Shown: in pieces, positions 44,396 through 61,775 of the stretch
How the letters are laid out: each line of letters opens with the position of its first letter
Numbering within the stretch: position 1 is the first letter of the stretch
Assembly: GCA_016219645.1 (NCBI GenBank)
Contig: JACRLR010000007.1
Span: forward strand, 186,001 to 250,000
DNA: 64,000 nucleotides
Direction: 5' to 3'
Source: Nitrospirota bacterium
Lineage (GTDB): Bacteria > Nitrospirota > Nitrospiria > Nitrospirales > Nitrospiraceae
Made by a program: the position numbers and the translations under genes
Notes under the pieces: model-generated
Told to the model about the DNA's origin: nothing
What the model saw: only the letters and a program-made list of their open reading frames with translations
The model's database searches: none

Positions 44396-44452
44396 TTCGA
44401 GTTTCGAGTTATCGGATTGATCTAAACCTAGAACCTAGAAACCCGAAACTTC
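44396..44452. repeat. Period-7 hairpin covering the end of the first Sco gene
   Basis: Left units TTTCGAG, TTTCGAG; right units AACCTAG, AACCTAG, AAACCCG, AAACTTC. On the minus strand the last codons of the Sco gene (VSGF and stop) are written by these units. Confidence 0.75.
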
Positions 44453-45085
44453 CCTGCCGTTTCGGCTGATTCGGAGCACCGTCATAGCAATCTGCCGGGG
44501 ATCCATGAGGGCCGGCAGGGACGACCACCGGTTCGTCGTATCGTTCCCGACAATGACGACCCCGGCATGTTGCGTCTTGTCTGCATCGACAGCCGGATCA
44601 AGGTCATACAGGCCCAGCTTCCAGCGCAGCTTCTCGATCTCCGCCTCATCCCCTGTCAGGAAATACCACCCTGGGAATTGCCCGAAGCGAGCGGCATACT
44701 CTTTCAGCGTCTTCGGCCTGTCTACCGCCGGGTCCAGAGAGATCGAGAGCAGAAACAGATCACGCCCGATCCGGTCTCCCAGCAGCCCGTGCACCAACGC
44801 AAGATTCGCTGTGGTCGGACTACAACTCTTCTCACAGCTCGTGTAGATGAAGTTGACGAGGACCGTTTTCCCCTTCACCAAGTCGTCATAGAAACGAACC
44901 GACCGGCCTTCTTGCGTCAACAGGAAGATGTTGGGGAAGACAGGGATAGGCGCCGTGAGATCCTCGCGCGCGTCATGGCCTGCGTCGGGAGGCCGGATCG
45001 GCGCACAGGCGCAGGCGAGCCAAAGTCCTGCGCAGGCCATGATGATCCAGGCTCCCGGCAACCGGCGGACAGCCCGCATGCTCAC
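44435..45085 (-). CDS. Sco1/SenC-type copper chaperone lipoprotein
   Basis: 216 aa from a GTG at 45085 that overlaps the stop of the upstream oxidase (GTGA). The N-terminus (WIIMACAGLWLACACAP) is a signal with a lipobox-like LACAC. The thioredoxin-like Sco domain has KTVLVNFIYTSCEKSCSPTTANL (CxxxC copper ligands) and DADKTQHAGVVIVGN (His ligand). Sco proteins deliver copper to, or reduce thiols of, copper sites. Translational coupling to a multicopper oxidase suggests it metallates that enzyme. The last codons lie in a period-7 repeat. Confidence 0.9.
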   Translation of the reverse strand: MSMRAVRRLPGAWIIMACAGLWLACACAPIRPPDAGHDAREDLTAPIPVFPNIFLLTQEGRSVRFYDDLVKGKTVLVNFIYTSCEKSCSPTTANLALVHGLLGDRIGRDLFLLSISLDPAVDRPKTLKEYAARFGQFPGWYFLTGDEAEIEKLRWKLGLYDLDPAVDADKTQHAGVVIVGNDTTNRWSSLPALMDPRQIAMTVLRISRNGREVSGF

Positions 45086-47106
45086 GATTGATTGCCCCTC
45101 TTGTTCATATCGAACTCGCACTCAGGGAAGCCGACACCTCTTCCGTTGACTCGATCTAGATCCCCCGCGACGTCGAAGTAGATGCGCTGCTCTTCTTCCA
45201 ATTCAGTGCAATCGGGAACGACTCCGGATACCTCCGGATCAATTCTGGCTTCCCCATCGAGCAGGCTGCGCTGCCCGAATGGCCTGGGGTCATGGAACCC
45301 CATCATGCGCATGTCCTCGTGCTCAACATTATGGCAATGGAAAGAAAAGGGACCGGTGAAGGTGCGGAACTTGATCAACACCTTCGCTATTTCACCCCCG
45401 TGCAGGTTGACCAAATCGCTGTTAAACGACCGCTCGAACGGAGGTGTCTTCCCATTGAGACTCTTGATCTGAAACCCCTCAAGATGCGTATGAAACGGGT
45501 GCCACCAGCCGCCTCCACCATTTTCAAAGGTCCACTGTTCGGTGGTGCCAAGCTCGGGGACCGCATCCGCTCGTCTCGGATTGAAGAACCGATTGTTGAT
45601 CGTCCAGGCCCCCAGTGAACGGTCCGACACGAAGGTCCGAGCTGCGACAACATCATTGTCGGAAATCGGCGCCCACTGATCTCGAATGACCGTGCCGTCA
45701 TCGATGATGACATCGTTGGCCACCGGAGCCCCGGTGACGACAAACTTCATCAGCTGGGTCGGTTTGTTGGGGTCCACCCCATCCCCCTTGCGCCCGCTGG
45801 TTTGAATCATGATGTTCTCGAGAAACACCTCGTCAGGCGCGTTTCTGAAGTCGATGACCACATCATGGCGTTGGCCGCTGGCCAGTTCGAAGTTCTTCAC
45901 CAGACCGGCCCTGGGGAAGAGCCAACTGTCGGCCCCGAATACGAGAAAGGGCTGGCCGCTGCTCAGCCGCAATTGATAGACCCGCGCGTTCGAAGCGTTC
46001 AGGATTCGAAAACGGTACTTACGCCGCTGCACTTGCAAAAACGGCTGCACCGTCCCGTTGACCGTAAACACATCGCCCAGGCGGCCATCGTGGTTGAAGA
46101 AATCGTAGAACAGCGTCCCGTCCGCGTTGAACCGTTGATCGGTCAGGGCCAGCCCGATATCGAACCCTTGAAACGTATCAGGCAGGACCCGGTCCTCGAT
46201 CAACTGTTCTTCCCGCTCGTCGAACATGAGGTAAAACCCTGCCAGGCCCCGGCTCACGTTGAACCCGGTGATATCCATCGCATGGTCGTGGTACCACAGT
46301 GTGGAGGGAGTCCAGGTCGGATCGAATGCACCTGTACAAATGCCCGCCCGCCGATCCGGTTGGGTCACACGCGGTTCAATGTTGGGCCAGTAATAGTCTC
46401 GCGCCTCGCCTGCCAAGACATAGAAGTCAGGAGCGCCGTCCGCATGGGCCGGAACGTGGGAGCCGTGAAGATGGACTGACGCCTCGATATCGTGGCCGGT
46501 CGTGTTGATGGGTGAGCGATCTTTTGTGCGGTGGTTTTCGAAGCGGGCCACCACCGGTTCCCGGAAACGCGCCAGGAAGGTCGGGCCAGGTGTTCGCCCC
46601 GGACCTCCTGCAAAGATGTCTCGATAGGCGAAAATCGGCGTGTCGACTCCCGGAAAGAACGACTGGACTGTCTCTTCGATGGCGATACGATATTCTTTCT
46701 CATGGGTATGGCTGGAGAAGCGGTTCCAGTCCGGGCAGGGAAAACCGGGAACCCGACCGTCAAACTCCGGGGCGATACCATGAGCCACATCGTCGAACCG
46801 TCCGTGGGGCACAGAGGGCCTCCCGCTTGGCCCCCCTGGGCGCGGATACTGGCCCGGCGCTGGTGAGAGAGTCCCACGCGGCCGGGACTGGGCAATCGAG
46901 GGGATAAACAGCGGTTGTGAAAATGGCCTGTAGCCGAAGACTGTTCCGCTCCTGCTGCTGCCGGAAGAAGAAGGGCCGCTCTTGGCTAAGGCTTCCCCTG
47001 GTCCGTTCAGGAAGGGAATCGGAAGCCGCCCCTGGCCGAGCGTGAAGGCGCCAAGGGTTGCGAGGCTATATTTGACGAGATTTCGTCGGTTGATGGGTTG
47101 GGACAT
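45082..47106 (-). CDS. Tat-exported multicopper oxidase
   Basis: 674 aa from ATG 47106, GGAGA upstream. A twin-arginine signal NRRNLVKYSLATLGAFTLG directs the folded, copper-loaded enzyme to the periplasm. The four copper motifs are complete: VHLHGSHVPAHADG, LWYHDHAMDITGFNV, WWHPFHTHLEGFQI, and FHCHNVEHEDMRMMGF. Ten residues after the T1 Cys is Met, so a methionine-ligated type 1 site is expected. Related to CotA/bilirubin-oxidase-like three-domain enzymes that oxidise phenols, Cu(I) or Mn(II); the substrate is not determined by sequence. No Ig modules. Confidence 0.93.
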   Translation of the reverse strand: MSQPINRRNLVKYSLATLGAFTLGQGRLPIPFLNGPGEALAKSGPSSSGSSRSGTVFGYRPFSQPLFIPSIAQSRPRGTLSPAPGQYPRPGGPSGRPSVPHGRFDDVAHGIAPEFDGRVPGFPCPDWNRFSSHTHEKEYRIAIEETVQSFFPGVDTPIFAYRDIFAGGPGRTPGPTFLARFREPVVARFENHRTKDRSPINTTGHDIEASVHLHGSHVPAHADGAPDFYVLAGEARDYYWPNIEPRVTQPDRRAGICTGAFDPTWTPSTLWYHDHAMDITGFNVSRGLAGFYLMFDEREEQLIEDRVLPDTFQGFDIGLALTDQRFNADGTLFYDFFNHDGRLGDVFTVNGTVQPFLQVQRRKYRFRILNASNARVYQLRLSSGQPFLVFGADSWLFPRAGLVKNFELASGQRHDVVIDFRNAPDEVFLENIMIQTSGRKGDGVDPNKPTQLMKFVVTGAPVANDVIIDDGTVIRDQWAPISDNDVVAARTFVSDRSLGAWTINNRFFNPRRADAVPELGTTEQWTFENGGGGWWHPFHTHLEGFQIKSLNGKTPPFERSFNSDLVNLHGGEIAKVLIKFRTFTGPFSFHCHNVEHEDMRMMGFHDPRPFGQRSLLDGEARIDPEVSGVVPDCTELEEEQRIYFDVAGDLDRVNGRGVGFPECEFDMNKRGNQS

Positions 47107-47127
47107 GATGGTTCTCCGTGGTTTCGA

Positions 47128-47263
47128 GTTGCAGGTTGCAAGTAGCAAGTGGCGAGTAGCAAGTAGCCCGATCGATCAGAAGCTCAAAACATGAACCCCA
47201 AAACTTCTCCACGGGTCACGCTCCGCGCCTCACGCCTTACGTTTCACGTCTCACGCTTCACGG
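47128..47263. repeat. Two period-7 arrays between the lipoprotein and oxidase genes
   Basis: 47128-47168 has CAGGTTG, CAAGTAG, CAAGTGG, CGAGTAG, CAAGTAG. 47222-47263 has CGCCTCA, CGCCTTA, CGTTTCA, CGTCTCA, CGCTTCA. In the second, minus-strand reading starts with the TGA stop of the lipoprotein gene. Confidence 0.7.
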
Positions 47264-49282
47264 ACAGGTAGGAGCGCCTCCGGATGTCCCGACTCCGAGA
47301 CAGCTGACCCCGAAATCAGGAGTAAACAGACTGTTTCCATTCACTTCCAGTCGTTCGATCGACGCGTTCATCGGTCTATTGGAATTGTCGGGGATAGAGT
47401 TCAGTACTGTAACCGACGGGCCTCCGACCTTTATAGTTACCGTGTAGTAAAAAGCCGTGACCCCGTGACTACCGGTATAGCCTGCAATGGCAAAGGTGGT
47501 GTCACTGGTCCCCCTGTTGATCAGGGTCACGCCCAAAAATGTGAACTCCGGTTGATTAAGTCTCGGCAGTCCATGACTGTCTATGGTCACCGTCGAGTCC
47601 CCTCGCACGATGATGGCCGAGCCACTTAAAGTCGAGAATGCATTTGGACCTTCATTGGTCCAGATGCCTGGCTGCGTGACGTTGTAGCCACCCCTTGTGA
47701 GATCGTCAAATCCAAAAGTCACGCCACTTGCCGCCGTAGCCTGGTTCACGTTGATGGTGAAGGTCTGGATGGTTGCCAGACTAACGCTGCTGTTGTCTTG
47801 CGCCTGCACAGTCACAACATTCGGCCCGACCTGACCCGCCGCCGCGGTCCAACTGATCACCCCCGTGCTGTCGATGGTCACCCCGGCTGGAATCGGCGCC
47901 ACCAGGCTATAGGTCAGCGTATCGCCGTTCGCATCCGTGGCAATTACGGTCGTGGTATAAGTCGTTTGCACAAATGCCGGTGGTAGCACAGTCGGGGTAA
48001 TGAAGACTGGTGCAGCCGGCGCGACGGTCGCCGCCACCTTCACAGTGAAGGACTGGCTAGCCGCGAGGCTGCCGTCCGACACCTGCACGCTCACTGGGTT
48101 GTCACCTACCTGGGCCACTGGTGTCCAGGCAATCAGGCCCGATACCGGATCGATGCTCATGCCGAACGGGGCCGGTTCCACCAGGCTATAGGTCAGCGTA
48201 TCGCCGTTCGCATCGGTGGCATTCACGTCGTAGCTGTATGCCACACCCTGAGTCCCTACCAGGGTCGGTGTTGAAGTGATGACAGGGGCTGCGTTGGTCG
48301 CCACATGCGTCGCTGTCAGGATTCCGTTCGCTAACTCGCCATCAACAGACAGCTTGACACCCTCGACAATCTCATCGATCGTGCCGCCTCGAAACTCCGT
48401 GCTTGGAGTCGTTTGCACATGGGCTGTCCCGATAAAGAAATTTCCAGGACCTACAACCTGGGTCACGAATCCTTCCACCTCGAACTCGTCCGCCTGCTGC
48501 ACAACCTGATTCTCAGGCTCGATCTTCGTCGCAATAAGGGTCGTCGTTGCGGAATCAAAGTTCGTTCCCTTCACCTCAACAAAGAGTCCGTTCCAGGCAT
48601 TGCCGGTCGGATTCGGCATGTCGATTGTGATCGTATTGTTGTCATAAACAACGTTTAACACGCCGATCTGGAAGGTCTTGGTACCAGCATCGTGGTTCTT
48701 TGCAAAACCCCTCACCTCAGGCGTGACAGTCCCTACAGCCTTTTTCTCGATGAAGGTCGCCTGGATCTCGCCGGTCGGCCTGATATACCCGTTCACCTCG
48801 ACAGAGTCTTTCCCCACCAAGAGACTCAGAATGTTTTGTCCTGAAATATTGCTGTCGATCAACGTGCCGCGATCCACCAGGACCGTCCGGCCCATCACCA
48901 CCAGACTTGATCCATCGGCGGCGATTGACTGCACCAAGCCTTCCACTGCATCCTTCTGCACCAACGTGCCGGCTACCCACTTGTTGCCGTCGAAGGAACC
49001 AGTGACCGTGACCGTCATCCCCTGCTTGAGCCCGCATGTCGTGGTGGGATTGACAGTGCACCGCTCTGTGATGCCGTCATGCCGCACTTCTACATCATTC
49101 GCCTCGAACCTCTTGCCGTTCACAAACACACTGCCGAATCCGGTAACCGTGCCTGAGGCCGCGGCAGATCCGCTGGTGCTGCCTGTTGCTGGACTCGACG
49201 ACCCCCCGCCGCCGCAGCCGCTGAGCAATCCGACTAAGCCAACTGCACCGAGAAAACTGAACAGCATCGATGACCGTTGCAT
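47258..49282 (-). CDS. DUF5666 lipoprotein with two Ig-like modules
   Basis: 674 aa from ATG 49282. Lipobox LLSGC, a Gly/Ser linker, then repeated DUF5666-type OB-like domains (GTVTGFGSVFVNGKRFEANDVEV; EVRGFAKNHDAGTKTFQIG; EVEGFVTQVVGPGNFFIG). Two cadherin-like Ig modules follow (APVITSTPTLVGTQGVAYSYDV and a second with TYTTTVIATDANGDTLTYSL), and a C-terminal beta domain of about 150 residues. Probably an outer-membrane or surface-anchored carrier. It shares the Ig module type with the exported oxidase and peroxidase and has the shared promoter element upstream. Confidence 0.85.
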   Translation of the reverse strand: MQRSSMLFSFLGAVGLVGLLSGCGGGGSSSPATGSTSGSAAASGTVTGFGSVFVNGKRFEANDVEVRHDGITERCTVNPTTTCGLKQGMTVTVTGSFDGNKWVAGTLVQKDAVEGLVQSIAADGSSLVVMGRTVLVDRGTLIDSNISGQNILSLLVGKDSVEVNGYIRPTGEIQATFIEKKAVGTVTPEVRGFAKNHDAGTKTFQIGVLNVVYDNNTITIDMPNPTGNAWNGLFVEVKGTNFDSATTTLIATKIEPENQVVQQADEFEVEGFVTQVVGPGNFFIGTAHVQTTPSTEFRGGTIDEIVEGVKLSVDGELANGILTATHVATNAAPVITSTPTLVGTQGVAYSYDVNATDANGDTLTYSLVEPAPFGMSIDPVSGLIAWTPVAQVGDNPVSVQVSDGSLAASQSFTVKVAATVAPAAPVFITPTVLPPAFVQTTYTTTVIATDANGDTLTYSLVAPIPAGVTIDSTGVISWTAAAGQVGPNVVTVQAQDNSSVSLATIQTFTINVNQATAASGVTFGFDDLTRGGYNVTQPGIWTNEGPNAFSTLSGSAIIVRGDSTVTIDSHGLPRLNQPEFTFLGVTLINRGTSDTTFAIAGYTGSHGVTAFYYTVTIKVGGPSVTVLNSIPDNSNRPMNASIERLEVNGNSLFTPDFGVSCLGVGTSGGAPTCP

Positions 49283-49350
49283 GGAATGACCCTCTGGTGA
49301 ATGCATCCATCTAGCGCTGGCACAAGATACAGTTCCTATTCAAGGGGGGG

Positions 49351-49373
49351 CTATACCACAAAAGAAGGGGTAG
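49351..49373 (-). promoter_or_regulatory. Shared upstream element, copy before the DUF5666 lipoprotein
   Basis: Minus strand: CTACCCCTTCTTTTGTGGTATAG. It keeps the CCCTnC and CTnTGGnATAG parts, but the left palindrome arm is lost. About 70 bp upstream of the start. Confidence 0.5.
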
Positions 49374-49375
49374 TG

Positions 49376-50404
49376 TTATTGCTGTGATTGTGGCGCTACG
49401 TCGAGGTGGGAAGGTCCGGCCAGCCGCGCCATTCTGTTGTCCAGATAGGCCAGTAGGTCTCCCACGTCCGCCTCCGACAGGCCCAGGTTTGGCATCACGA
49501 CGCCGGGGAACTTTGCTGAGAGCGCCACAGCGATCGGATCCTTCTTCGCCCGCATCACATTGGGCGCTTGAAGAAACTCAGAGAGCCAGGCTCGATCTCT
49601 ACGAGTGGTCACGCCCTGAAGATCCGGCCCGACAAGATCGCCCTGGCCGATTGTGTGACAGGAGGAACAGGCCTTGATAAAGAGGGCTTGGCCCGGCTGG
49701 TTCACATAGGGGACCGGCGACATATCGGCGTAGGCGGTTCCTGGGGCATTCCCCTTCTTAGCGCGGAAAGCAGGATCCATATTCAGCATCACCAGGGCAA
49801 GCTGCCCGGTATCCTGAAACAGGGAGGTGCGCTCCCAATCATCGGTCGCGCCGTTTCCCGCCATCGCATCGTTTTTGTGATCCGATAAACCCTTTCCGCG
49901 CTCTCCGAGTTTGTAGCGGGCGACGGCGATATCTTCCGGCTTGCCGGTCAGAAACAGCCAGCCTGGCCCTGCGTGAAAGGCCTTGGCATGCTGCCTCAGC
50001 ACCGCCGGCGTGTCATGTTCCGGATCGAGCGTGATCGAGTAGAGAAAGATGTCGCGCCCCACATGGTCTCCCAAGGCCTTCTGCAACTGCGCCATACGGG
50101 CCGTCACGAGGGGACAGACTTCTTTGCAACTGGCATAGATGAAGTTGATCAGGACGATCTTGTTCTTGATCAAGTCGTCGTACAGCCGGACGGTCTGCCC
50201 GTCCTGGGTCACAAGCGGCACATTCGGGATGTAGGATGCGCCCCAGTTCCCGGCCGACACAGGAGCGGCGAAAAGCGTTGCGCAGAAAATCCAGAGGAGC
50301 AGCGCACGGATCGTGAAGCGTGATGCGTGAAGCGTAAAGCGCGAAACCTGAGACGTGACGCGTGAGGCGTGAAGCGTGAAACGCGGGGGAGTTGCGAGTT
50401 GCAT
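49376..50404 (-). CDS. Sco-type copper protein fused to cytochrome c
   Basis: 342 aa. Residues about 8-34 (FTLHASR/VTSQVSR/FTLHASR) are encoded by a period-7 DNA repeat and form an Arg-rich front to a signal sequence (ALLLWIFCATLFAAPVSA). The Sco domain has VLINFIYASCKEVCPLV (CxxxC) and a His in SDHKNDAMAGN. A class I cytochrome c follows: CSSCHTIGQGDLVGPDL with axial Met in VVMPNLGLSEADV. No other in-frame start exists between the repeat and the signal helix, so the repeat appears to be translated. Likely links copper-site maturation to electron transfer. Confidence 0.85.
   Translation of the reverse strand: MQLATPPRFTLHASRVTSQVSRFTLHASRFTIRALLLWIFCATLFAAPVSAGNWGASYIPNVPLVTQDGQTVRLYDDLIKNKIVLINFIYASCKEVCPLVTARMAQLQKALGDHVGRDIFLYSITLDPEHDTPAVLRQHAKAFHAGPGWLFLTGKPEDIAVARYKLGERGKGLSDHKNDAMAGNGATDDWERTSLFQDTGQLALVMLNMDPAFRAKKGNAPGTAYADMSPVPYVNQPGQALFIKACSSCHTIGQGDLVGPDLQGVTTRRDRAWLSEFLQAPNVMRAKKDPIAVALSAKFPGVVMPNLGLSEADVGDLLAYLDNRMARLAGPSHLDVAPQSQQ
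50311..50386. repeat. Period-7 array inside the Sco-cytochrome c gene
   Basis: On the minus strand eleven units: CGTTTCA, CGCTTCA, CGCCTCA, CGCGTCA, CGTCTCA, GGTTTCG, CGCTTTA, CGCTTCA, CGCATCA, CGCTTCA, CGATCCG. This strand lacks stop codons, and three units (21 bp) encode a heptapeptide. Confidence 0.85.
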
Positions 50405-50479
50405 GTCTCGAGTTTCTAGTGTTGTTCGGGGACTGGGCCAGGCGCCTGCCAGAGGCAGGTGCCTGGCCCTTCAATCCGG

Positions 50480-50521
50480 CAACTTTCTACTTGCCACTTA
50501 CTACTCGCTACTTACTATTTC
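50480..50521. repeat. Period-7 array at the end of the oxidase-Ig gene
   Basis: On the minus strand it reads TAGAAA, TAGTAAG, TAGCGAG, TAGTAAG, TGGCAAG, starting with the TAG stop codon of the upstream gene. Every unit holds a stop codon. Confidence 0.75.
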
Positions 50522-53500
50522 TACGCCGCCACCGACACGAAGAAGCTCTGTTCGGTCGTGAGGCCAGCGGTGTCACTCGCTCGCACCCGGATCCGGATAC
50601 TCCCCGCCACTGTCGGCGTCCAGGTGACAACGCCCGTTGTCGCGTGGACGAAGAAATTATTGGGGTTGCCGCCCCCCGCACGGTAGGTGATGGCGTCGCC
50701 GTTGGCGTCCGTGGCATGCACCGTATAGTTGTAGGGCACTCCCACCTTGCCGGTGGTAGGCGGCCGCGAGTCGATGACCGGCGCCGCATTGCCAGCCACG
50801 GTCACCGTGAATGCCTGCTGGGCAAACAGGCCGCCCGGATCCGTCACTCGCACCGTCACAGGAAACGATCCGTTCACCGTGGGCGTCCAACTGATCAGCC
50901 CTGTCGCCTGGTTGATCGTCATGCCGGCTGGAATCGGCGCCACCAGCCGATAGGTCAGGGTGCCACCGTTGGCGTCCGTGGCGTTCACATCGTAGCGATA
51001 GGCAGTGCCGACCTTCGCCGTCAGTATCGGCGTCGAGGTGATCACCGGCGCGACTGCCGTCAGCCCCACCGTGAGGGTAAAGGACTGGGTCGCGAAGAGG
51101 GATTTCGGGTCCGCCACCCGGACAGTCACCTGATTGGCACCCATCTGATCCGATGTCGGCGTCCAGGTGATTTGCCCTGTCGCCCCATTGATGCCCATCC
51201 CAACCGGCGCATTGTCCAGGCTGTAGGTCAAGGTATCGCCATTCGCATCCGTGGCATTCACATCGTAGCTGTACACCGCCCCCACCGTCGCTGCCAGGAT
51301 CGGTGTGGAGCTGATGACCGGCGCGGCCGAAACCGTCACCTGGTTCCCTAATGGATTGCCCTCGACCAACACATCCGGCGTCATATAGGTGCAACCGTCC
51401 GGCGTAGGAATTGGCGTCGGAATAATGTCCGCATGCAGGTTCGAGGATTTGGGATTGTCCTTATCCGTCAGGACCTGGTAGCGCATCAACAGGGCAAAGT
51501 CTTCGTGGACCGTATTGTGGCAATGGTTCACGTAGGCGCCGCCATATTCCCCGAAGCGCACCTGGAACTTGACCGACCCACTGGGCCGGAGCCGCCAGAC
51601 ATCCTTGCGAACCAGGCTCTCTGTGGCTGGGATGGAATCGTTGCCGCGATTCATCGTCACGCCCTCTTCGAAGTGGAGGTGGATCGGATGGTCCCAGCCT
51701 CCGCCGCCGTTCTGATAGGTCCAGTGCTCGACCTCCCCCGGTTTCGGGATCAAGAGCGAGATACGATTGGCATTCATCGAATGAGGCGTCTCCCCGTTGA
51801 CCTTGATGGTCCAGGGAAAGGGCATGTCCTCGGGGCAATCAGGATTGCACTGTCCCGTGATGGGATCCCGCGAATCCCCGTTCCCGCTTCTCCCAAACTC
51901 GACATGGCGCTCGCGCACCGGTGCCACGATCGGAATCTGCTCGGTCAAGGTCGAGGGCACCCGGCTCGGATCTTGGTCGCTTGCGCGATGGATGTGGCCC
52001 GGCACATCCACGCTCTCGAGCTCGCTCACAATCTGGAATTGCATCACAGGGCCAACGGCCGGGTCCACCAGCGGATCCGGAGACTGCCACTGAGCCAGGG
52101 CCTGCGCCAGCGACAGGGCCCCGTCCGGTTTATTCCCGCTGATTTGCTTCAACAGATTCACCAGGGTGATCTTGTCGCCGATCTGGTAGCGGGAGAAATC
52201 CACGACAATGTCGTAGCGCTCCGCCGTGCCCTGCTGATCCAGCCGCGTCAGGGTGATCGGACGGACCGTGAAGTTCCCGTCGTTGGCAATGAATTGGAAC
52301 GGGACGAAGTTGCCGTCCTCATCTGCCAAGGCCAACTGAATGAACCGCGACATGGAGCCATTGATGAGGCGGAATCGATACTTTCTTGGCAAGACCTCCA
52401 TGTAAGGCTGCCAGGCCTGGTTGACAGTCAACAGATCGCCCACGAACCCCTCGGTGGTGAAGATGTCAAATCGACATTGGGCGTCCTGATCCGTCCCCAG
52501 ATCGGCGATGAAGAGGTTCACGTCGAAATCGAGGTTCCCATAATCCAGCAGGCTGCCGCTGGGAAGCCGGAGATTCACACCGTCGTCGAGCGTTTCGTTG
52601 CCGCGATCCGGCCCGCTGTAGTAGTTCATCATCGCCGCCATCCCCTTGTAGACATTCTCGGCGGTGAAGAAGAACCGGTGGTCATGGAACCAGAGCGTGC
52701 CTTGTAGCTCGCGCCAGTCGCCCGGCACCTGGATCAATCCGCCTTGTCCATCAGGGCCGGAGGCGCGACGATCTGTCGCATCCCGATTGATCATGTCGTG
52801 GCGCGCCAGGGTTGTGCCCCAATGGTAGTCGTAGAAGGTTCCGGGGAAGTGAAAGGCGTTGGAGGCGCCGTCGCTCTCCGCCCCGTTATGCGCATTGTGG
52901 AAATGTGTCGAGGGCTCATTGCGGCCGAACCCGCCGTTGTTGGTGCGGTCCACTGGCAGATTGTTGTAGGCCCGCATGATGATGGGCTCCCCATAGCGCC
53001 CCTTCAGGAGAGGGATCGGGAAGTGGCCCTTTGCTCCAAACCCTTCGAAACTGTACATGGGCCACATCTTGTTCGCTTCCTGGTCCGGCCAGGCCGGGTG
53101 GAACTTGGTCCCAGTGGCACATTCGCCAAACGCCAGGGCGTAGCCGACTTGCGGAAAAAACTCCTTCCAGCGCTGATGCCCGAACCACTCACCGGGCGGG
53201 CGTCCTTCCATGGGGCCCCGCTTGGTGACGGGGTTGATAAAGGGGTTCGACGAGGTATTGCCGGCCTGGTGCGCGCTGAAGTCCGTGTGCCAGGAGAGCC
53301 GCTTCGCGGTCGGATCTCCTCCGCTGGGCCAAGCCGCCTCCCACTCGCCGTTCGGCCGTACGATTTTCGTCAGGGGCGTCGGCGGAACATAGGAGAGCCG
53401 ATTCAAGGGCTGCGCAAAGGGCAACGCACTCCCGACCGGCGATCGCGGAACGCCGGTCGGAACCTGGGCGAAGGCGCTTTTGGCAAAGGGGCTTAAGCCG

Positions 53501-53670
53501 TTCTTGGCCAATAACAATCCTGCCGAGGTGATGAGTCCCCACTTGATCAGATCCCGCCGGTTGATCTGGCCATGGGAGAGCGCTTTGACAATCTCCCAGC
53601 GGTTGTTCCGCGCGTTTTCTGCTTCTCGCACACGTCTCTTCGATGCATCAGGCGGTAAATATGTTGCCAT
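50521..53670 (-). CDS. Tat-exported multicopper oxidase with three C-terminal Ig-like modules
   Basis: 1049 aa, AAGGAGG upstream. Twin-arginine signal NRRDLIKWGLITSAGLLLA. Copper motifs: STHFHNAHNGAESDG, LWFHDHRFFFTAENVY, WDHPIHLHFEEGVTM, NHCHNTVHEDFALLM. Ten residues after the T1 Cys is Leu, unlike the Met in the two sister enzymes, so a three-coordinate, higher-potential T1 site is expected. From about residue 775, three He_PIG/cadherin-like modules follow (APVISSTPILAATVGAVYSY, APVITSTPILTAKVGTAYRY, APVIDSRPPTTGKVGVPYNY). Resembles the very large secreted OmpB-type oxidases of Geobacter. Confidence 0.93.
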   Translation of the reverse strand: MATYLPPDASKRRVREAENARNNRWEIVKALSHGQINRRDLIKWGLITSAGLLLAKNGLSPFAKSAFAQVPTGVPRSPVGSALPFAQPLNRLSYVPPTPLTKIVRPNGEWEAAWPSGGDPTAKRLSWHTDFSAHQAGNTSSNPFINPVTKRGPMEGRPPGEWFGHQRWKEFFPQVGYALAFGECATGTKFHPAWPDQEANKMWPMYSFEGFGAKGHFPIPLLKGRYGEPIIMRAYNNLPVDRTNNGGFGRNEPSTHFHNAHNGAESDGASNAFHFPGTFYDYHWGTTLARHDMINRDATDRRASGPDGQGGLIQVPGDWRELQGTLWFHDHRFFFTAENVYKGMAAMMNYYSGPDRGNETLDDGVNLRLPSGSLLDYGNLDFDVNLFIADLGTDQDAQCRFDIFTTEGFVGDLLTVNQAWQPYMEVLPRKYRFRLINGSMSRFIQLALADEDGNFVPFQFIANDGNFTVRPITLTRLDQQGTAERYDIVVDFSRYQIGDKITLVNLLKQISGNKPDGALSLAQALAQWQSPDPLVDPAVGPVMQFQIVSELESVDVPGHIHRASDQDPSRVPSTLTEQIPIVAPVRERHVEFGRSGNGDSRDPITGQCNPDCPEDMPFPWTIKVNGETPHSMNANRISLLIPKPGEVEHWTYQNGGGGWDHPIHLHFEEGVTMNRGNDSIPATESLVRKDVWRLRPSGSVKFQVRFGEYGGAYVNHCHNTVHEDFALLMRYQVLTDKDNPKSSNLHADIIPTPIPTPDGCTYMTPDVLVEGNPLGNQVTVSAAPVISSTPILAATVGAVYSYDVNATDANGDTLTYSLDNAPVGMGINGATGQITWTPTSDQMGANQVTVRVADPKSLFATQSFTLTVGLTAVAPVITSTPILTAKVGTAYRYDVNATDANGGTLTYRLVAPIPAGMTINQATGLISWTPTVNGSFPVTVRVTDPGGLFAQQAFTVTVAGNAAPVIDSRPPTTGKVGVPYNYTVHATDANGDAITYRAGGGNPNNFFVHATTGVVTWTPTVAGSIRIRVRASDTAGLTTEQSFFVSVAA

Positions 53671-61109: not shown

Positions 61110-61775
61110 TCATGCCGGCACCTGCTGGGGGCCACTCACCCACCTAACGGACTTAACGATTTCCCTCGGTTCCGACAGAGCCGGACAGGCAGCCCAGCGG
61201 TCGAACCGTTCGTTGCCATACAGGACGACTCCGATATGCTGGGTCTTGTCTGCATCGACGACCGGATCCAGATCACGGAGGCCCAATCTGCGCCTCAGCG
61301 TTGTGATATCCGCCAGCGACCCGGTCAGAAACGTCCAGCCAGGCTGGACACTATAGTTCTTGGCATAGTCGCGTAAGACTTGAGGGCTATCATGTTCGGG
61401 ATCCAGGGAGATCGAGTACATGAACACATCCCGGCCGACACGGTCGCCGAACAGCTGTTGAACACGAACCAGATTGGCGGTGAAGGTCGGACAACTGTTC
61501 GTGCAGGTGGCATACATGAAGTTGATCAATACGACTTTGCCCTTCACGAGATCCTGGTAGAACCGCACATCCCTTCCTTCATGCGTGGTGAGCACAACGT
61601 CCGGAAAGCGCGCAGCGCTCGGACCGTCTGCCGTTGCCGGTCTTTGTACCGGCGCCGGTGTCGGCTTCGGCATCGGTGCCGTCGTCGGCTTCTCCTCGGC
61701 CAGGCCTGCCGTTGCGGCCATCGCCGTCTGGATGAGAGAGATCCCCATGCTGGCTAGGAACGCGCGTCGTTTCAT
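61110..61775 (-). CDS. Sco1/SenC-type copper protein
   Basis: 221 aa. The leader MKRRAFLASMGISLIQTAMAATAGLA starts with Lys-Arg-Arg, Tat- or Sec-like. A Pro/Thr/Ala linker leads to the Sco domain: KVVLINFMYATCTNSCPTFTANL (CxxxC), SISLDPEHDSPQVLRDYAKN, and DADKTQHIGVVLYGN with the third ligand His. Lies between a multicopper oxidase gene and a di-haem peroxidase gene, which fits a copper-delivery role. More like the Sco at 44.4 kb than the cytochrome fusion. Confidence 0.92.
   Translation of the reverse strand: MKRRAFLASMGISLIQTAMAATAGLAEEKPTTAPMPKPTPAPVQRPATADGPSAARFPDVVLTTHEGRDVRFYQDLVKGKVVLINFMYATCTNSCPTFTANLVRVQQLFGDRVGRDVFMYSISLDPEHDSPQVLRDYAKNYSVQPGWTFLTGSLADITTLRRRLGLRDLDPVVDADKTQHIGVVLYGNERFDRWAACPALSEPREIVKSVRWVSGPQQVPA

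Follow-up and report, generated by a model that had tools for sequence, protein, structure and literature searches.

Can a short tandem repeat that otherwise lies mostly between genes become the beginning of a protein? The question is raised by an open reading frame at positions 49376–50404 (minus strand) of the window, the whole 64,000-nucleotide stretch of Nitrospirota DNA that was analyzed. The frame specifies a Sco1/SenC and cytochrome c protein of 342 amino acids, probably an exported copper and heme protein, in which the n-region of the signal peptide is encoded by the repeat. Pfam searches identified a SCO1-SenC domain at residues 64–163 (5e-20) and a Cytochrom_C domain at residues 237–323 (4.9e-10). 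Both domains are located in a single chain and each exceeds the curated Pfam cut-off, as in a SCO1/SenC-cytochrome c fusion, and the CxxxC (CKEVC) and CxxCH (CSSCH) motifs can be read directly. The translation opens with MQLATPPRFTLHASRVTSQVSRFTLHASRFTIRALLLWIFCATLFAAPVSA. Codons 8–31 of the gene comprise a degenerate CGCTTCA tandem array that precedes the hydrophobic stretch of a putative Sec signal peptide, the helix ALLLWIFCATLFAA (50264–50305, minus strand), which is followed in the translation by a likely cleavage site after PVSA and before Gly. The Sec features recognizable by eye are arginines at positions 8, 15, 22, 29 and 33, the helix, and the VSA–G junction, with an n-region that is unusually long. 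The wider neighborhood includes multicopper oxidases (one with Ig-like domains), a DUF5666 protein and three Sco-type proteins, namely the one under study and two others, which cluster at window positions 44444–53670 and 61272–61643; this may be a locus for respiration or detoxification that is linked to copper.

The array occupies positions 50311–50383 on the minus strand and codes for RFTLHASRVTSQVSRFTLHASRFT. Downstream of the ATG at 50404 the units read CGTTTCA, CGCTTCA, CGCCTCA, CGCGTCA, CGTCTCA, GGTTTCG, CGCTTTA, CGCTTCA, CGCATCA and CGCTTCA, followed by a partial CGATCCG, and TRF reported a period of 7 with 9.9 copies and 77% matches at 50312–50380. The preliminary description of this DNA had counted eleven CGCTTCA-type units: their in-frame placement stands, but the count is ten plus a partial eleventh. 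It had also placed a stop codon in every unit of the opposite strand, where TGA or TAA is found in nine of the ten full units; the read strand, as it had stated, is free of stops, and this is so in every frame. The encoded peptide contains Arg but no acidic residues. Because the unit length of 7 cannot be divided by 3, each frame yields the same RFTLHAS heptapeptide. Alternative-frame ORFs across the array, such as 50013–50474, were dismissed as mechanical products of an array in which all frames are open. The repeat of the Sco array is far above the level of chance: the 3.65-Mb genome contains 210 occurrences of TTCACGNTTCACG, with up to one mismatch, compared to five of the reversed control, and the window holds seven period-7 arrays compared to 0.05 in shuffled sequences. 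The commonest array period in the window is 7, with its multiple 14. Another such array, of non-coding AGTAGCA/GTAAGTA-type heptads, was detected by TRF at 50482–50517 (minus strand) in the spacer that separates the Sco gene from the multicopper-oxidase gene upstream of it.

The ATG (50402–50404, minus strand) is the sole canonical in-frame start upstream of the signal helix according to the ORF list and the orthologue comparison. No in-frame ATG, GTG or TTG occurs between the upstream stop codon and 50404, or between the array and the helix, which bears out its earlier designation as the only upstream start. The codon sits within heptads of a second, GAAACTC-type family (gaaactc gagacat gcaactc gcaactc; 50389–50416, minus strand), a context that is shared by three orthologues (L002–L004; agaaactcgaaacatgaaactcgaaact in the L004-like form). 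Composites of CTCGAAAC with TTCACG units recur at other sites in the genus, for the most part not in predicted genes, and some contain a CGAGATACGCTTCACG segment as in the leader of a further orthologue (L005). Across seven genes that were compared, including the repeat-free L066, no Shine-Dalgarno-like motif was evident before the start (within 20 nt for ATG 50404), and no sigma-70-like promoter was found on the minus strand in the stretch scanned near the Sco gene. We therefore infer initiation at ATG 50404 from the open frame and from conservation. The lack of a Shine-Dalgarno-like motif at this codon would also suit an array that is a 5′ untranslated region, with the protein beginning at a non-canonical codon just before the helix (ATC at 50311, CTG at 50302 or similar). 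Such an arrangement gains further from the frequent location of arrays directly upstream of starts elsewhere, as 17 of the 71 CGCTTCA arrays in the genome (G000) lie within 60 bp of a predicted same-strand start. However, the array itself also is devoid of a Shine-Dalgarno-like motif.

A search of the genus, sampled as one genome per species, recovered five more copies of the Sco-cytochrome c gene, in genomes that correspond to Nitrospira sp. CG24E, L.E.N.18, WB-IL-04, RSF3 and CG24C. All five possess the repeat, in frame, ahead of the same helix, with the leaders MKQATSPRFMLHASRFTSQVSRFTICALLL (L002), MKLETSLRFTLHASRFTICALLL (L003), MKLETPQRLTPHVSRFTSEVSRFTLHVSRFTSEAPRLTLCALLL (L004), MRDTLHASCFTICALLL (L005) and MSRSVRHTTLGAFLQDTLHAPRFTICALLL (L006). 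The helix is kept in the six Nitrospira orthologues and in L066. Where the ATGs are homologous, the distance from ATG to helix is 99 nt in the window gene, 78 in L002, 57 in L003 and 120 in L004, so that the four lengths step by exactly 21 nt, or three units. The two remaining orthologues use other ATGs located 39 and 78 nt from the helix, also in frame; the residues before the helix thereby vary from 13 to 40 between species. Four frame-preserving lengths would arise by chance alone about once in 27 trials, assuming independent changes. The length of the non-coding AGTAGCA/GTAAGTA-type array, which lies another ~80 bp upstream, is not the same in the window and in L002, the difference being 28 nt (four units), and thus frame-breaking changes occur where nothing is read. 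An untranslated array would have no need to keep the frame to the upstream ATG, and the ATC codon proposed as its downstream start is CTC in L004.

The same lengths bear on whether the gene is a phase-variable contingency locus in which gain or loss of one 7-nt unit would shift the frame and turn the exported protein off. A 7-nt unit between start and body is suited to this purpose, and simple sequence repeats near N-termini are a known design as noted in a passage of PMC4692102 that cites Lin and Kussell. Nevertheless, the array is degenerate (77% matches), which limits slippage, all orthologues are in the on frame, and the genes with homologous ATGs differ by multiples of 21 nt. Maturation proteins of the Sco type are not known as typical surface antigens subject to phase variation. 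Phase variation is considered extremely improbable.

The repeat is absent from the homologues of Methylococcales, Polaromonas and Acidobacteria that were compared. The closest repeat-free relative, L066 from a Nitrospiraceae genome, has a short leader, MRRRIVILALLL, with a conventional n-region and a mere trace of the repeat, GGCTTCACG, ahead of its ATG. A single origin of the repeat in Nitrospira is weakly favored by the Sco tree (57/82 for the split from L066). The preliminary description had suspected that the 5′ end of the gene was taken over from a repeat and had proposed that orthologue N-termini be compared. That comparison supports the capture, with in-frame repeats in five of five close orthologues, length steps of 21 nt and a repeat-free relative with a short n-region. 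Two outcomes that would have told against it also were sought: neither a conserved alternative start downstream nor the same leader without the repeat was found among the orthologues, the outgroup leader being short.

A parallel case is provided by two tandem lipoprotein genes of the same genome (L031) in which a coding CGCTTCA repeat lies ahead of the lipobox helix. The family is nearly universal in the genus (31 of 32 genomes). Repeat-free members resemble MAPSPQHSARTLSHKPSLLLALLCVVATAC, and in most of them 30 residues lead to the lipobox Cys; repeat-bearing members, for example MALSPQQSHVPRFTLHVSRFTSSALRFTLHASRFTKSLLALLCVISTAC, keep the M..SP.H-like start and the helix with 37 to 52 or more residues to the Cys. 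The ATG side and the helix are common to the empty and the repeat-bearing forms. Strongly supported branches of the lipoprotein tree force at least three changes of state and the parsimony count is five. The family has gained the repeat several times, in the segment that separates the conserved ATG from the conserved lipobox helix. Because the homologous start is upstream of the inserted repeat, the lipoproteins constitute the strongest evidence that the repeat is translated, and the conserved ATG in that position again argues against an untranslated array, which is regarded as very unlikely for the Sco gene. Two other features of the lipoprotein genes were observed. A second, unrelated-looking repeat, GTTCGACAGGCTCACCGTCCCGAGCCAAGTCGAGGGACG, coding for VRQAHRPEPSRG, breaks up the n-region heptads in frame in the lipoprotein gene of one genome (L154, G018). 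In addition, a TGTGCTAGATTC-type element (fuller form CTATCGTCTGTGCTAGATTC) is conserved ~10 nt before the lipoprotein ATG in L152–L155, L158 and L160–L162. It resembles an extended -10 promoter element, and the conserved CTATCGTCTGTGCTAGATTC may be the promoter of a leaderless mRNA.

The distribution of CGCTTCA arrays was assessed from pattern hits and genome stretches. No predicted gene covers 51 of the 71 arrays, and a large part of the remainder touch gene edges. The gene caller was of a simple codon-usage type that cuts off N-termini encoded by repeats and labels some edges wrongly; for this reason the arrays of the Sco and lipoprotein genes are themselves among those scored as outside. 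An inverted CGTGAA partner is present within 120 bp of 42 of the 71 arrays (G000), and thus some copies are palindromic. Taken with the 17 start-adjacent arrays, this suggests hairpin elements near gene borders. Arrays that open ORFs such as L057 and L195 were omitted from the coding count as the ATG follows the repeat. The earlier claim that the repeat is non-coding elsewhere is correct for most copies, but fails for at least two lipoprotein genes (L031) and for internal loops of a HerA-like ATPase (L140:1088–3685, minus strand) and a nitroreductase-family protein (L142:1353–3128, minus strand). In these two genes, found in G000 and assigned by Pfam, the CGCTTCA repeat or its reverse complement lies in frame; the loops vary between species and 7 is the best period in many, not all, of the sequences aligned.

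In-frame heptads also are present in the Lhr-type helicase (Pfam WH_Lhr), which has at least five variable loops that contain them (orthologues L228–L257; the G000 copy is L234). The best short period among those tested (4 to 12) was 7 in the DNA of every loop measured. The unit differs by species, including RFTLHASRFT, SPLTPHASPLTP, ALSTQHSAL, SAISHQPSAIS and GEGLGVRGE, and one loop is reduced to PMP, an empty site, in several genomes. Overall, the repeat has the properties of a protein-coding dispersed repeat: intergenic and in-frame copies in unrelated genes are accompanied by orthologues with empty sites. The Sco leader is one instance of a wider habit of the genus that the preliminary description had overlooked.

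In all likelihood, the start of the Sco gene was assembled from intergenic heptad repeats and its first ~33 codons are real coding sequence. Homology, preservation of the frame, a repeat-free relative and parallel cases are demonstrated for this leader; translation from ATG 50404, export and cleavage are probable, and the leader may be nearly neutral. The origin of the leader can be envisaged as follows. In an ancestor of these Nitrospira species, units of the CGCTTCA type that lay at the 5′ end would have fused in frame to the signal helix and displaced the old short n-region. In the window lineage, the start would have been supplied by an ATG inside the adjoining GAAACTC-type heptad. The array then may have gained and lost units, with only three-unit (21 nt) changes surviving. 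A leader of this type would be tolerated because it is stop-free in all frames and contains Arg but no acidic residues, and an n-region recognized by the Sec system has few requirements other than net positive charge. It should leave with the signal peptide and the mature protein therefore would be unchanged. A long repeat leader also could be kept for a function of its own, such as tuning of translation or a delay of export by virtue of the longer signal-peptide region. Some repeat is retained in six of six Nitrospira orthologues, and the best in-genome matches to the array peptide are coding copies, the Sco gene and lipoprotein copy 1, as a selected function might predict. Against this, the region before the helix ranges in length between 13 and 40 residues, the start codon is a different one in two species, and L066 and some lipoprotein relatives have no repeat. 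A selected function is very unlikely.

The best reading of these patterns is that mostly intergenic heptads turn coding at permissive sites, that is, signal-peptide n-regions and loops. The chances are evenly balanced that an ongoing process in Nitrospira makes or copies interchangeable 7-bp repeats that fill permissive sites of many proteins in frame, with the unit swapped between species. If so, short intergenic repeats would be a steady supply of new protein sequence in the genus. Genes with and without the repeat, with the same flanking ATG and helix and steps of 21 nt only, form a natural comparison set for the passage from non-coding repeat to protein. The repeats also call for caution in Nitrospira, a main nitrifier, as they shape the annotation of start sites and the alignment of loops. 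They pose testable questions as well, about the preference for a 7-bp period and the swapping of units. Literature searches returned no account of heptad repeats in Nitrospira or of repeats that serve as signal-peptide n-regions.

The Rickettsia palindromic elements are the nearest functional parallel, and the STRR, TAACTGA and GGGNATC heptamers the nearest in form. Cyanobacterial STRR are 7-bp tandem units that are dispersed, mostly intergenic and occasionally inside a functional gene. The Nitrospira repeat likewise consists of tandem 7-bp units dispersed in the genome, a likeness from which no kinship is claimed. The units and the phylum differ, and the case of an STRR inside a functional gene cited in PMC2858038 is an RNA gene (Vioque, 1997) whereas a signal peptide is involved in Nitrospira. 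The TAACTGA heptamers of Beggiatoaceae are described in PMC4679880 as lying mainly between genes and a short way upstream of start codons, with few copies in ORFs, chiefly near protein ends, and a single readable orientation. The intergenic bias, start proximity, few in-ORF copies and one-orientation read-through are shared with Nitrospira. However, the unit differs, and the account of in-ORF copies in section 15 of that paper does not set repeat-bearing orthologues beside repeat-free ones, whereas the Nitrospira coding copies were compared across species. The GGGNATC heptamers of Xanthomonas and Nostoc also are dispersed and over-represented in non-coding DNA near ORFs, but are of G-quadruplex type and reported as under-represented in coding regions (PMC4692102). 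Rickettsia palindromic elements are ~150-bp palindromes with a conserved ORF (Ogata et al., 2000, 2002, reviewed in PMC10969869). The Sco site instead has a short degenerate 7-bp array and no ~150-bp palindrome was seen there; more generally, the Nitrospira unit is 7 bp, the arrays are short and degenerate, the frame is irrelevant within an array, and a given protein site has different units in different species. What the two systems have in common is an intergenic repeat family that also is found in frame in unrelated protein genes, where the added peptide is tolerated (PMC10969869).
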